Shown here one piece after another: positions 1,308-13,950 of a stretch of 64,000 nucleotides of DNA. Source of the DNA: Candidatus Omnitrophota bacterium. Its GTDB lineage: Bacteria; Ratteibacteria; UBA8468; B48-G9; DTJG01. The position numbers were made by a program, and so were the translations under genes. Within the stretch, counting starts at the first letter, position 1; every line of letters begins with the position of its first letter. Under the pieces are notes generated by a model. It was not told where the DNA came from. It saw only the letters and a program-made list of their open reading frames with translations, and made no database searches. Where the stretch lies: NCBI GenBank assembly GCA_023818965.1, contig JAMWCD010000006.1:141475-205474 (forward strand), written 5' to 3'.

Positions 1308-1379
1308 GCGGGATTAACTCAGCGGTAGAGTGCGACCTTGCCAAGGTCGAAGTCACGGGTTCAAATCCCGTATCCCGCT
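1308..1379 (+). tRNA. tRNA-Gly(GCC)
   Basis: GCGGGAT/ATCCCGC acceptor stem, anticodon loop TTGCCAA, T-arm CGGGTTCAAATCCCG, discriminator T. Confidence 0.93.
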
Positions 1380-1553
1380 TTTGGATCTTTTACAAGGAAC
1401 GGGATTTGAATTGGAGCGAAGTAAGGGATTGCGAGCAAGCGCAGCAATCCCAGCGGCCGGCGACCCGAGTTGTAGTGGGAGACAAGGGCGCCAAATCCCG
1501 TATCCCGCTTTTGGATCTTTTACAAGAAATGGGATTCGAATTCGAGCGAAGTA
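1362..1553 (+). repeat. Direct repeat of the tRNA-Gly 3' end plus tail, flanking a GC-rich hairpin segment
   Basis: 35-bp perfect direct repeat CAAATCCCGTATCCCGCTTTTGGATCTTTTACAAG at 1362-1396 and 1492-1526, extended imperfectly to ..GAGCGAAGTA (1423/1553). Between them is an 8-bp hairpin GGGATTGC(1425-1432)/GCAATCCC(1444-1451). Confidence 0.85.
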
Positions 1554-6114: not shown

Positions 6115-9100
6115 ATGAAAAATCTGGAAATGCCTGATTTATTAAAGGTCCAGATTGACCCCTATAAAAGATTTCTTCAAAAGGATGTTCCCCCAGAAAA
6201 GAGGGAAAATACAGGACTTGAGGAGATTCTCAGGAGGGTCTTCCCTGAGATAGAGATACTACCTGGAGAAAAGCACCGTGTAATAGCAAGTGATGATGGG
6301 GTCCTGTTTCTTGAGTACATCAGTTATGCAATAGAAGACCCTGTGGAAACAGAATCAGAGTGTGTTGAGAAAGGTATTACCTACGGTGGCAGATTTAAGA
6401 TAAAATTCAGGCTTTATAAAAAGAACAAGTCAACCAATCGTTTTGATAGCATCAGGGAGCCACAGGATGTTTATCTTGGCATAATCCCCCTGATGACAGA
6501 ACGTGGAACATTCATTATCAATGGTATTGAAAGAGCAGTCGTTAATCAGATACAGAGATCTCCTGGAGTATATTTCAAAGAAGAGGAAGAGATAGGACAG
6601 AGAATTACATATTCAGCGCGTATTTTTCCTGCACGTGGGCTATGGATGGAATTTCATCCTGAACTTCATCATAATGTGATGTGTCTGTATGCGTATTTTG
6701 GAAAGAAAAAGATTTATGCCACAACTTTACTGAAAGCACTTGGATATTCTGAGGCAGAAATTTTATCATTATTGTATGACTCACCCGACAAAATCCCGAC
6801 TGATAGTATCATAAAAACAACCCTTGAAAAAGATGCTGATATAAAAACTGCTCAGGATGCTCTCAGAAAAATCTATGTGGAATTGAGACCTGGTTTTCCA
6901 ATGGATGACAGGGAAGCCCGAATATTTTTCAAAAGATTGTTTTTCTCTTCAGAACAATATGATCTTTCTCCTGCAGGAAGAATGCAGATTAACAAGAAAC
7001 TTGGATTGAACATAAATGAGTTGCATCTGACATCAGAAGATATCATTAAGACAATCAGGTACCTGCTGAATCTTATGGAAAACAATCAAGGTGAAGTAGA
7101 TGACATTGATCACCTTGGAAATAAAAGAGTGAGGACATCAGCAGAAATTATCAAAGAACACATGTATGAAGGGCTGATACGACTGGCTCATTTTGTAAAA
7201 GAAAGAATGGCAATCATTGATAAGACACAGGAAATTTCTCCACAGGACCTTTTGAATAGCAGGGTGTTTTCAACAGTTGTTGAAGAATTTTTTGCTCGAA
7301 ATCAGTTATCTCAATTTCTTGATCAGATTAATCCTCTCGCAGAACTTACTCATAAAAGAAGGTTGACAGCAGTTGGAGAAGGAGGGGTAAAAGAAAGAAA
7401 GCGAGCCGGATTTGAAGTCAGGGATGTTCATTATACACACTTTGGTAGAGTGTGTCCCATAGAAACACCTGAAGGTGCAAATGTTGGTTTAATTAATTCC
7501 CTTACTGTGTACGCTGAAGTTGACAGGATTGGTTTCATCAGGACCCCCTATTACAGGGTTAAGAACGGAAGGATTTTGTTTGATGAGGTCGTCTATATTT
7601 CTGCTGATGAAGAAGACAATTACGTTGTGGCTCCACCTGATGTTCCTTTTGATTCAAAAACAGGTTTAATTATTCCAGAAACAATTCGAGTAAGGTCAAA
7701 GGGTGGAGAATTTACAGAAGCCAGCAGGGATGAGATTCAGTTGATAGGGGTTTCTCCCAAACAGGTTGTTGGTTTAAGTGCTTCGCTAATACCATTTCTT
7801 GAGCACAATGATTCCAACCGTGCATTGATGGGTTCAAATATGCAACGTCAGGCAGTTCCACTTTTAAAAGCAGAAGCCCCACTGGTACGTACAGGAATGG
7901 AGAAAAAGGTTGTAATGGATTCAGGTGTTGTGGTAAAGGCAAGAAATTCAGGAGTTGTGAAGTATGTGGATGCAAGCAAAATTATTATTGAAAGGGATGA
8001 TAAAGGATTATTTCCCTGGCAGCACCAGGATGAGTATTATCTTCAGACATTTCGCAGAACAAATCAGGATACCTGTTTTCATCAGAAACCAGTTGTTTCA
8101 GTTGGTCAGAAAGTAAAAAAGGGACAGATTATTTCAGATGGACCTGCTGTCTCTCCAGAAGGATATCTTGCACTCGGAAAAAATTTACTTGTTGCCTTTA
8201 TGCCGTGGAGGGGATATAACTTTGAGGATGCGATTGTTCTGAGTGAACGACTCGTGAAGGAAGATACATTTACCTCAATTCACATTGAGAGGTTTGAGGT
8301 TATTGCTCAGGAGACAGAGCGTGGACCTGAAGAAATAACAGCAGACCTTCCGAATGTTTCTGAGGAAGAACTAAGAAATCTTGATGAAAATGGCATTATC
8401 AGGATAGGTGCAGAAGTTAAACCAGGTGATATTCTTGTTGGTAAAATTACACCAAAGGGAGAATCTGAACTGACTCCTGAAGAGAAATTATTAAGGGTGA
8501 TTTTTGGTGAAAAGGCAAGAGATGTTGCGAATACGTCATTGACTGTTCCTCCTGGTGTTTATGGTGTTGTGGTAAATGTAAAAACATATTATCCAACCGA
8601 AAGAATATCAGAGGACCAGGTGAAGAAGCAGGTTAGTGAGATCGAGAAAGAACTGAAAAATAAAAAGGCAATCGTGTGCAAAATTATCAAAGAACAGATA
8701 AAAGAAATACTAATCAGAAACAAGATTTCTGCCACCAGATTAACAACAAATCCTGATAGCTGGGATCGCATTGTTAATTCAATTGATAATGAAGATATAA
8801 AAAATCAGGTGAAAAAAATTGTTGACATCGGCAAATCAGAACTTGAAAAACTTGAACAGGATGCGAACAATGAAAAAATAAAAATTCGAAGGGGTTCAGA
8901 ACTTGAGCCCAATGTTATATGCAAGGTATCTGTTGAAATAGCAATAAAGAAAAAAGTTGCAGTTGGTGATAAGATGAGTGGAAGACATGGGAATAAAGGA
9001 GTAATCTCTGTGATATTGCCGGAAGAGGATATGCCATTTCTTGAGGATGGAACTCCTGTTGATATAGTGTTAAATCCACTTGGGGTTCCTTCACGTATGA

Positions 9101-12100
9101 ACATTGGTCAGATTCTTGAAACACATTTAGGATGGGCTCTGAGGACACTCGGATGTTCTGCTGAGACACCTGTTTTTGAAAGTATTAAAGAAATTGAGAT
9201 TAAACAAAAACTCAGAGAGGCAGGTCTTCCTGAGGATGGAAAGACAATTGTCTATGATGGACAAACCGGTGAACCATTCCTTCAGCCTGTAACAGTTGGT
9301 TCAATTTATATGATGAAATTGATTCATCTTGCTGATGAAAAGTTTCATGCTCGTTCTGTTGGTTCATATTCGTTAATAACACAGCAACCACTGGGAGGAA
9401 GGGCACAGTTTGGAGGTCAGAGGTTTGGAGAGATGGAAGTATGGGCTCTTGAAGGATATGGAGCCAGTCATACCCTGCGTGAAATGCTTACGATTAAAAG
9501 TGACGATATAAAGGGACGCAAAAAAGCCTATGAAAGTATTGTAAAGGGGATTGATTATCATGAAGAAAATCTTCCAGAATCATTCCATGTTCTTACACGT
9601 GAATTGAATGGTCTTGGATTTGATTTGAGGATAGAAAAAAGAAAAAAGGATGGTCAGGATAAGGATGTTGTGACCATAAGAATTGCACCACCAATGGTGA
9701 TTCGTTCGTGGTCTTACGGGGAAGTAAAAAAAGCAGAGACATTGAATTACAGAACAAATAAACCCGAACGTGATGGTTTATTCTGTGAGAAAATTTTTGG
9801 TCCTGTAAAGGACTGGGAATGCGCGTGTGGAAAATACAAAAAACAGAGATTTCGCGGAATTATCTGTGACCGCTGTGGTGTAGAAGTTACCACTTCTGAT
9901 GTAAGAAGGGAAAGAATGGGTCATATTGAACTGGCAACACCTGTTTCATATGTGTGGCTGTTCAAAAGTTCAGCAAACTGGCTCGGGGTTCTACTGGATC
10001 TTTCACAGGTGACACTTGAAAAGGTTCTTTACTACGACAGATACATTGTTGTTGACGCAGGAGATACTCCGTTACAGGAAAAAGAACTTCTTACTGAAGA
10101 AGAATATAGAGAAAATCTCAGTAAATATGGGAATAGATTTCGTGCAGAAATTGGTGCAGCGGCAATACAGGAACTACTGAAAAAGATTGATCTTGAAAAA
10201 GAGATGGAAAAAGTGAAGCAACAGTTGAAAGACAAAAAGAAGAAAAAGGACCAGACAAACAGAAGAAATCTTGTAAAGAAATTACGAATGATAGAAGGTT
10301 TGATAAAAACAGAGGTTAAACCAGAGTATCTTGTAACGTCCATTATTCCTGTGATACCTCCTGATTTAAGACCACTTCTTCCTCTTGACGGTGGAAAATT
10401 TGTTGCGTCTGACCTTAATGACCTTTATCAGAGGGTTATTAACAGAAATAACCGTCTTAGAAAACTTATCAAACTCCAGGCACCTGATATCATTATCAGG
10501 AATGAAAAAAGGATGTTGCAGGAAGCAGTTGATGCACTTTTGGATAATGGACGTTATGGAACACCTGTACTTGGTAAAGGGAAAAGGCCTTTGAAATCGC
10601 TTAGTGATGCATTGAGAGGTAAACAGGGTAGATTCAGACAGAATCTTTTAGGTAAGCGAGTTGATTATTCTGGAAGGGCAGTAATTGTTGTTGACCCAAA
10701 ATTAAAGTTGAATGAGTGTGGAATACCAAAACAAATGGCTCTTGAACTTTTCAGTCCGTTTGTTTTAAGAGAATTGAGAAAGAAAGAATATTTCCATACC
10801 CTTGGCAGTGCAAAAAGAGCCCTTGAGGAAAACAGACCAGAGGTATGGGAAATCCTTGAAAAAGTCACAAGGAATCATCCTGTATTGTTAAACAGACAAC
10901 CTACGCTTCATCGTTTGAGCATTCAGGCTTTTGATCCAAGATTAATGGAAGGCAATGTTATCAGGATACATCCCCTTGTTTGTACTGCCTTTAATGCAGA
11001 CTTTGATGGGGACACAATGAGTGTACATGTTCCCATAACTGTTGAGGCACAACTTGAGGCAGAACTATTGATGAAATCATCTCTTCATGTCCTGTCTCCA
11101 GCTAATGGAAGGCCTATCGTTACACCGACAAGAGATATTGTACTTGGATGTTACTATATGACATTCCAGAGTGATCAATCAGTTTATGGTGATAAAATTG
11201 TTGAATACAGGGCGCATAAGAAAACGATTGAAGCAGTATTTGACATTGATGAGGCGAAGATATTATACATGGTCGGGAAACTTGAACTTCATCGACCTGT
11301 AAGAATAAGAAATAAAAATGGTGAGATTATACTGACAACAGTAGGAAGGATTTTGTTCAATGAGATTCTTCCAGAAGGAATGCCGTATCAAAATCGTCTC
11401 ATCAATATTGAGGCACTTGAGAATCTCATCAAGAGGATGTTTGTCACCTGTGGCTATGCAAAAACAGTAGAATTTCTTGATGCGGTGAAGGAACTTGGTT
11501 TTGAGTACGCAACAACCGGAGGTTTGAGTATTGGTATAGATGATCTAAAAGTTCCAGAAGCGAAACAAAAGATGATTGCTGAGGCACGAAAAGAGGTTGA
11601 AAGAATAGAGAAAGAATACAGAGAGGGTTTGATTTCTGAGGGTGAAAGATATAACAGGATTATTGACCTCTGGACATCAATTACAAATGAAGTGTCTAAT
11701 GAGGTTTTTGCAACATTGAGAAGAGATGCTTCTGTTGAGCCATTCAGGATTAATTCTCTTATTATGATGGTTGAGTCAGGGGCAAGAGGAAATCGTTCAC
11801 AGGTGAATCAGCTGGCAGGTATGCGTGGATTGATGATCAGGCCAACAAAGAGAGCAACAGGTGGTATTGGAGAAATTATTACAACACCGGTACTGGCAAA
11901 TTTCAGGGAAGGGCTGCCACTGCTTGAATACTTTATCTCAATCCATGGTGGAAGAAAGGGAGTTGTTGATACTGCTCTGAAAACCTCAGATGCTGGATAC
12001 TTAAGCAGACGACTTGTTGATGTTGCGCACAGTGTGATTGTTACAATGGAGGATTGTGGTACAGCCGATGGTATTTATATCAGTGCACTTACTGAGGGAG

Positions 12101-13950
12101 AAAAAGTTATCATACCGCTTAGGGACAGGATTATTGGTCGTGTTGCCTTTGACCCAATTGTTGATATTATTTCAGATGAAGTTGTTGTAAAAGCAGGTGA
12201 AATTATTGATGAGGAAAAGGCAGAAAAAATTGTTGCCCTTGGTATCGAAAGAATCAAGATTCGTTCAGTTCTTACCTGTAAAGCAGAAAAAGGTGTTTGC
12301 GCAAAATGTTATGGGGCAGACCTTTCCAGAAATAAACTTGTCAATCTTGGTGAGGCAGTGGGCGTTGTTGCTGCTCAATCAATTGGAGAACCAGGTACAC
12401 AATTGACACTGAGAACATTCCATGTTGGAGGTACTGTAACAAGAGCCATAGGACCTTCAAGGATTATCAGTCATAGCGAAGGATATGTAAAGTTTTCAGA
12501 AAATCTCAGGTTTGTTAGAAACAAAGATAACAGGATGGTTGTTATCAGCCGTGAAGGAACCATAGATATATACGATGATAAGGGTCGTCAACTTGAAAGT
12601 AATCCAGTATTTGTTGGTGCAATTCTCCACATCGAAGCAGGTAAAAAAGTGAAAAAGGAACAGGTTCTTGCGACATGGGATCCTTACGCTTTACCCATTA
12701 TCGCAGAAAAGAAGGGTGTCGTAAGATTCAGGGATATTGTAAGCGGTAAGACGATTAAGGAAGAAAAAGACCAGCGTGCAAATGTTACCAAGAGAACAGT
12801 GATTGAACATCAGGAAGACCTGGAACCGAGGATTGAAATTCTTGAAGATGTGCATGCCGGGAAGTCAGCCGTTATCAAATTTAAGGATATTGAAGTGGGA
12901 GAGAATGCAAGAAAAGAGGACAATGAAATAATTATCACAACACACACTTCTGAAAAAAGACCTGAAATTGTTCTGGTTGAGAAAGATGGAAAAACTGAAT
13001 TAGAAAAACATCCTGTTTCTATACATACTGAAATTATGGTGAATGATGGAGATTCTGTAAAAGCAGGCGACTTAATTGCTCGCAGGGTTATTGCTTCCCA
13101 TTATCTTTCAGTTAATACCAGTATTCTTGTTGACGATGGACAGGTCGTTACCCCTGGTGAAATCCTCGCAAAAACACCAAGGGTTGTTGGACGTGTTCAG
13201 GATATCACAGGAGGATTACCAAGAGTTTCAGAACTTTTTGAGGCAAGAACACCAAAGAATCCAGCAATTTTAAGTGAAATTGAAGGTACAGTTTCCATCC
13301 ATCAGGGTGAAAAGGGAACAAGAATTATACGAGTAACAGATGAATCAACCAAGCAGACAAGAGAATACAGGATTCCTTTTGGAAAACATCTTCTTGTTGC
13401 AAACGGAGATCATGTTGTCAGTGGTTCGAAACTTACTGATGGTCCTGCTGTTTTGACAGATGTTTTAAGAACACAGGGTGAAAAAAAGGTTCAGGAATAC
13501 CTTCTGAACGAAATACAAAAAGTTTACAGGGTGGAGGGTGTTAATATTAATGACAAGCACATGGAAATTATTATTCGACAGATGCTTTCGAAGGTGAGAG
13601 TGACTGATCCTGGTGACACCTACCTGCTTGAGGGCGAAGAGATTGACAGGGTAAAAATTCAGCAGATCAATGAAGCATTACCAAAAGGTAAAAAACGAGC
13701 AAAATATGAACCATTGATTCTTGGGATTTCCAGGGTTGCTCTCAGCAGTGAAAGTTTTATTTCTGCTGCTTCATTCCAGGAAACAATGAAAGTTATAACA
13801 AATGCTGCTATTACAGGTGCTGAGGATTACCTTGAGGGATTGAAAGAAAATGTTATTCTTGGGAAATTAATCCCTGCTGGTACTGGATTTTTTGCCAGTC
13901 AGATGAAAAAGCAGGAACAAACCGCAGAAGCATTTGTGAGCAGTGAATAA
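6115..13950 (+). CDS. rpoBC: Fused DNA-directed RNA polymerase beta-beta' subunit (2611 aa; RpoB about 6115-9650, RpoC about 9670-13950)
   Basis: One uninterrupted ORF with RpoB signatures ([37 protein letters not shown]) followed by RpoC signatures ([42 protein letters not shown]). Confidence 0.95.
9627..9677 (+). promoter_or_regulatory. Candidate -1 programmed ribosomal frameshift site at the rpoB/rpoC junction
   Basis: GAGG (9627-9630), in-frame A_AAA_AAG (9642-9648), inverted repeat ATGGTCA(9650-9656)/TGACCAT(9671-9677), -1 frame stop TAA (9660-9662), AAGGA(9661-9665)-N4-GTG(9670). Confidence 0.4.

Follow-up and report, generated by a model that had tools for sequence, protein, structure and literature searches.

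The window analysed here is a 64,000-nucleotide (nt) stretch of contig JAMWCD010000006.1 (positions 141,475 to 205,474) from the Candidatus Omnitrophota bacterium assembly GCA_023818965.1. Directly behind its transfer RNA (tRNA) gene for glycine, positions 1380-1564 hold one full and one decayed unit of a dispersed repeat family. The feature probably belongs to a family of small non-autonomous mobile elements, spread through the phylum, whose insertion sites are tRNA genes. Units are about 110 to 130 nt long. Each contains, in order, a T-rich tail, an inverted copy of the T-loop and T-stem of its own tRNA, a core rich in guanine and cytosine (GC), and a direct copy of the tRNA from C56 to the 3' end. 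The core carries two covarying hairpins, P2 and P3.

The units behind tRNA-Gly

The features at this locus, in window coordinates, are as follows.

1308-1379, + strand: tRNA-Gly(GCC), the target gene, intact (ARAGORN; Rfam RF00005, 69.9 bits)
1380-1398, + strand: T-rich tail of 19 nt, the 5' end of the inserted unit (missing at the empty site, G007 L283)
1399-1410, + strand: inverted copy of the T-loop and 3' T-stem strand of the unit's own tRNA (ACGGGATTTGAA), which is the 5' strand of helix P1
1411-1491, + strand: GC-rich core (family alignment, covariation and covariance-model match)
1413-1421, + strand: conserved core motif GGAGCGAAG
1425-1432 with 1444-1451, + strand: hairpin P2, 8 base pairs (bp), GGGATTGC and GCAATCCC
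1459-1466 with 1486-1492, + strand: hairpin P3, with loop region GTAGTGGGA at 1472-1480
1492-1509, + strand: direct copy of tRNA-Gly from C56 to the discriminator, the target duplication (repeat comparison)
1510-1564, + strand: decayed second unit, with tail, inverted arm ATGGGATTCGAA at 1529-1540 and core start CGAGCGAAG at 1543-1551 (part of the 73-nt repeat)
1615-1643, + strand: promoter-like site of tRNA-Thr, TTGACT-17-TATAAT, 11/12 (consensus scan)
1665-1738, + strand: tRNA-Thr, the next gene

The locus contains a direct repeat of 73 nt (1362-1434 and 1492-1564) with 90% identity and a spacing of 130. Its first 35 nt are perfect. A sequence-only reading of the stretch had placed this perfect part correctly (1362-1396 and 1492-1526); the repeat actually extends further. 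The 12-nt inverted copy of the T-arm which that reading described (1360-1371 and 1399-1410) is 100% complementary, and its 8-bp hairpin is real and corresponds to P2. The first nucleotides of the direct tRNA copy also take part in closing P1 and P3. The GC content was 0.60 at 1401-1500, against 0.30 at 1201-1300 and 0.29 at 1551-1650, which bears out the earlier description of a GC-rich core in AT-rich surroundings. The weaker similarity to 1423/1553 noted in that reading is explained by the start of the decayed second unit. The covariance model of the family matches the window's unit at 1399-1501 with 105.1 bits; this unit is among the ten from which the model was built.

Downstream of the insertion the promoter-like site is intact, and the empty site in G007 has similar sequence. 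A consensus scan of 1200-1800 detected no intrinsic terminator. Of the processing or terminator module suggested earlier, the intrinsic terminator is dropped and a role in RNA processing is possible.

A short inverted copy of the T-stem of tRNA-Thr, TTCCCATCA ... TGATGGGAA, lies behind that gene's 3' end (1720-1750) and has no core. It may be a remnant or a separate hairpin.

Distribution of the family

The window's genome contained 1.38 megabases and was 65% complete, with 30 tRNA genes found in the assembly. At least nine different tRNA genes are followed by the core, as single units or in tandem arrays of up to three. These are tRNA-His (three units), Leu-CAG, Val-GAC (two), Tyr (three), Met, Lys-CTT, Lys-TTT, Ser-TGA (two) and Gly-GCC. 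The arrays of two or three units at tRNA-His, Val and Tyr are intact. All matches that the whole-genome model search listed for this genome fall in these nine arrays. Chance can be excluded because the core recurs in the same genome, with E values down to 2.5e-38, each time behind a tRNA gene. An integration scar, which had been offered as one possibility, was rejected.

The covariance model matched 27 of 35 genomes of the phylum, which are metagenome-assembled genomes (MAGs) labelled Ca. Omnitrophota, Ca. Ratteibacteria or TA06. There were up to 30 matches per genome at E <= 0.01. No units were detectable in G011, G014, G016 and G017, although these are fairly complete genomes. Occupancy was about 16 of 44 tRNAs in G007 and 9 of 30 in the window's genome. 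Outgroup genomes gave matches near the level of the reversed-pattern control only. A scan of 85,462 species genomes with a core 20-mer gave 26 stretches, of which 24 came from MAGs labelled Ca. Omnitrophota, Ca. Ratteibacteria, candidate division TA06 or "bacterium". The two others, from Nonomuraea, were rejected as chance, with only 25 nt of the model matched. Other phyla may hold divergent relatives.

For the window region, Rfam 15 had no match to the core (E up to 5). In six related loci it gave, besides tRNA and 6S, only weak sub-threshold matches (E up to 1). No match to the element was found in IMG/VR (two patterns), phages or plasmids. No description of such elements was found in the open literature, a search outside of which most subscription journals lie. 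We regard the family as new and previously undescribed. Whether it is also a new kind of element hinges on a copying step, discussed below, that is unproved.

A 6S RNA gene (RF00013, 66.9 bits) lies at L008 1216-1390, directly 5' of a tRNA-Tyr with a three-unit array.

Position and target-matched arms

Positions were compared for 161 model matches in the fetched stretches. A tRNA lay upstream on the same strand within 600 nt in 139 of them. Most of the remaining 22 lay at the end of a contig, followed a tRNA that was broken or went undetected, or belonged to the type B loci described below. First units begin 9 to 24 nt behind the tRNA. The targets include 30 tRNA species for 16 amino acids. 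Sites at Tyr, Val-GAC, Ser-TGA and His are occupied in many species of the genus.

The inverted copy is usually 10 to 12 nt long, counted from T54. The direct copy contains 18 to 21 nt from C56 and was exact in 79 of the 111 first units examined. Inverted arms were compared with their own tRNA in 98 units. Position 57 matched in 91 units (48.5 expected) and position 59 in 96 (40.9 expected). Specificity was seen at positions 57, 59, 60, 63, 64 and 65, where 0 of 2,000 permutations reached the observed value at any position, and it fades at 64-65. The arms also vary along with the tRNA between species. At Arg-CCG the sequence is TTCGACTCCC in G007 and TTCAACTCCC in G003, and the inverted and direct copies both match.

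Structure of the core

The alignment contained 66 units in 112 columns. RNAalifold predicted 21 pairs, of which 20 have two-sided changes. For P2 and P3 alone, 92.5% of cells were paired, against 74.9% in shuffles. Two-sided changes were present in 15 of their 16 pairs, and sliding destroyed the pairing. GA...GA steps are seen in the alignment in P3 and in the P2 loop. A pseudoknot had been considered because of CCC/GGG changes, which proved to reflect the covarying stem P3. In 62 of 66 units the better fold is that of the sense strand and not the antisense strand; this bias is uncontrolled for base composition and therefore only hints at RNA.

Long optional hairpin modules with GA..GA loops (for example GGTTGCTGATGCGATGAATAAAGAGCATCGTATAGCAAG...) occur within or between units, at L011 1358-1523, L019 1365-1530, L031 1530-1740 and, between units, in L006. 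Similar modules occur in other genomes. A separate dispersed palindromic repeat (about CCCCTCCTTT..AAAGGAGGGG) often lies just 3' of the arrays. It was found at L002 1180-1280, L004 1630-1780, L006 1200-1250, L011 1300-1340, L019 1560-1600 and L031 1790-1960.

Empty alleles and insertion borders

G007 has no insertion at the window's tRNA-Gly. Its gap between tRNA-Gly and tRNA-Thr is 77 nt, against 285 nt in the window's genome. At Ser-CGA, G007 is filled and G002 is empty, and the downstream flanks are 99.5% identical. Filled and empty alleles were also found at Leu-TAG, Arg-CCG, Trp and Val-TAC. These alleles, together with the many tRNA genes that are followed by the same core and by a copy specific to that tRNA, support the earlier suggestion of a non-autonomous tRNA-targeting repeat that regenerates a tail for each tRNA.

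At Ser-CGA the inserted sequence is the tail, inverted arm and core, and the duplicated sequence is CGAATCCTGCTCTCTCCGCC. The corresponding sequence at Leu-TAG is CAACTCCCCCTCCTCGCAC. Identity between the two copies was followed at 88 sites. It ends no more than 3 nt from the tRNA end in 30, continues through the tail into a further unit in 35, and is intermediate in the rest. In the cleanest allele pairs the tail belongs to the insert. Tail motifs such as TTCTTTGA are common to different tRNAs, above the shuffled level. TTCTTT was present 23 times in tails, and the commonest 6-mer of shuffled tails about 9 times, with a maximum of 14.

Core similarity within genomes and type B loci

Cores at different tRNAs within one genome resemble each other more closely than do cores of different genomes (0 of 500 permutations), and a shared tRNA contributes little further similarity (28 of 500). 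The core therefore follows the genome, and the arms follow the tRNA. This pattern is expected from repeated insertion with copying of the target.

Some loci, which we call type B, contain the core inside a T-loop. An extra tRNA-Ser(CGA) copy of this kind is present in G002, G007, G010 and G012, and tRNA-Val-type copies are present in G024. The core sits after a hairpin CTGAAAT...ATTTCAG, and the T-loop itself is changed to CTGAAAT. The type B search pattern gave eight loci. Type B loci are L168 721-936, L125, L197, L201, L215 and L315-L322. At the Ser-CGA loci and the Val locus L215, contigs that extend far enough show an intact tRNA downstream. In ordinary units the inverted arm can pair upstream, in a hairpin like that of type B, or downstream, as P1. 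Type B keeps the upstream option only.

Proposed mechanism and alternatives

Under the reading that we favour, insertion would start at the T-loop palindrome, and the core would join at C56. The stretch from C56 to the tRNA 3' end would be duplicated on insertion; with this second copy the tRNA stays whole. The inverted arm may be templated by the target as the element inserts, by snap-back or template-switch synthesis for instance, and every new copy would then automatically match its new host tRNA. The constant start at T54 and the variable far end of the inverted copy suggest synthesis that runs from the T-loop to about the end of the T-stem. The mobilising enzyme, which would act in trans, probably recognises the fold of the core, which two-sided compensatory changes maintain. 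Arrays may grow through repeat insertion or unequal recombination. If this is true, one element family could use most tRNA genes without destroying them. It is possible, and we propose it tentatively, that these elements form a new class of mobile nucleic acid, one that makes its target-matched arm anew each time it inserts, with a structured core, T-loop entry at many tRNAs and a duplicated tRNA 3' end.

Several points weigh against a mobile element. Mobility is read from alleles, and no transposition was observed. No autonomous partner was seen in the fetched loci, and no systematic search for a parent was made. Among these incomplete drafts, RVT_1 (PF00078) was present in only 4 of 35 genomes and absent from G000 and G002-G009; Y1 transposase (PF01797) was absent at E 1e-5 from G000, G003, G007, G008 and G010, all of which bear elements; and IS110 DEDD transposase (PF01548) was absent from the element-rich G005, G008, G010, G015 and G029. 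The distribution of the elements does not follow that of any of the three enzymes, and each was rejected as the motor because several element-rich genomes lack it. The mobilising enzyme was not found with these three profiles; tyrosine integrases and Cas1 were not searched for. The sites shared by many species (Tyr, Val-GAC, Ser-TGA and His) would also fit long retention for a function. Gene conversion of cores, with maintenance of the arms, would yield the same pattern of cores by genome and arms by tRNA. The type B Ser-CGA loci are kept in two families.

Type B is the best argument for a host RNA module, which on the whole we think unlikely. The unit would be a structured trailer co-transcribed with the tRNA, and not a parasite. 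Its inverted arm would pair with the upstream T-arm or with the downstream copy and so switch between a normal tRNA and a long T-arm extension, controlling maturation or acting as a small RNA. Type B keeps the hairpin before the core although its T-loop is changed to CTGAAAT, and the strong two-sided covariation and the occupancy of the same tRNAs across many species point the same way. The units also lie in the orientation of the tRNA and fold better in sense, but orientation would be fixed by site-specific insertion alone, and the strand bias carries the limit on base composition given above. A module of this kind accords poorly with empty alleles at the same tRNA in close relatives, with variable unit number and decayed units (the window's included), with patchy occupancy, and with core similarity that follows the genome and not the tRNA. 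If it were true, the family would be a new tRNA-coupled RNA module instead.

It is improbable that the unit is a satellite of a tyrosine-recombinase or casposase-type integrase. Such a satellite would be a minimal integrative element with the tRNA 3' end as its att site and a T-loop crossover, and its small circle would be mobilised by an enzyme encoded elsewhere. The duplication from C56 to the 3' end and the T-loop boundary are as in phage Ms6 (PMC1762012). Casposase, which recognises the T-psi-C palindrome, likewise targets tRNA 3' ends and often forms tandem insertions (PMC9939771); tandem arrays are present in this family. However, such enzymes use one fixed target, and here one core serves 30 tRNA species with matched arms; the duplication is 18 to 21 nt, against 15 bp for casposase. 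A one-off local tandem duplication of the tRNA end, later decayed, would fit the one full and one decayed unit in the window, and the sequence-only reading had allowed for it. It is hardly credible and was rejected, since the same core, which is not part of any tRNA, lies behind many tRNA genes here and in 26 other genomes.

Other features of the window

A single frame of 2,611 amino acids is present at 6115-13950 (+ strand). Judged by reading the sequence, it encodes RNA polymerase beta and then beta-prime in frame (an rpoB-rpoC fusion).

Comparison with known systems

tRNA genes are classic landing sites of integrative elements. To our knowledge, each known integrase reads one attachment sequence, and tyrosine-recombinase and casposase systems do not carry the target in an inverted copy. 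The mitochondrial GC clusters that we know of are not restricted to tRNA 3' ends and do not have target-matched arms.

The family shares with tyrosine-recombinase elements such as Ms6 insertion at the tRNA 3' end, a T-loop boundary and a gene left whole, with the 3' part of the tRNA duplicated at the far end of the insert. Ms6 crosses over in a tRNA T-loop and needs 100% identity between attP and attB (PMC1762012). The present unit differs in that it is about 110 nt long, contains no genes and is too short to encode an integrase. It also differs in its 30 tRNA species per core, its inverted target copy and its tandem arrays.

Casposase recognises the T-psi-C palindrome; its insertions lie at tRNA 3' ends, are frequently tandem and produce 15-bp duplications (PMC9939771). 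The target near the T-arm palindrome, the tRNA 3' ends, the tandem insertion and the target duplication are shared. Casposons have their own terminal inverted repeats and cas1/polB, whereas the present inverted repeat is copied from the host tRNA and the duplication runs from C56.

Mitochondrial GC clusters, or double-hairpin elements, are tiny GC-rich mobile palindromes (PMC4478555). They are alike in their very short GC-rich palindromes, sporadic presence and merging of palindromic modules (PMC4478555). They are mitochondrial, whereas the present elements are bacterial and lie behind tRNA genes. Target-matched inverted arms are described for none of Ms6, casposons or GC clusters in the accounts compared here.

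Miniature inverted-repeat transposable elements (MITEs) and repetitive extragenic palindromic (REP) or REPIN elements, the latter moved by the Y1 transposase RAYT, are likewise short, non-autonomous, palindromic, dispersed and multi-copy. In the present family the arms differ with each tRNA, and there are therefore no fixed element-borne terminal repeats. The duplication length is slightly variable, the units lie at tRNA genes, and Y1 is missing in several element-rich genomes. For REP/REPIN elements (RAYT), for retroelements driven by reverse transcriptase (group II, retron or short interspersed element-like) and for IS110 bridge-RNA elements, the respective enzyme does not accompany the family in the profile searches above.

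The family contains a covarying RNA or single-strand-DNA fold outside Rfam that extends through most of a phylum, with filled and empty alleles. Its one minimal core uses 30 tRNA species, which raises the question of how an element acquires arms that match each target.
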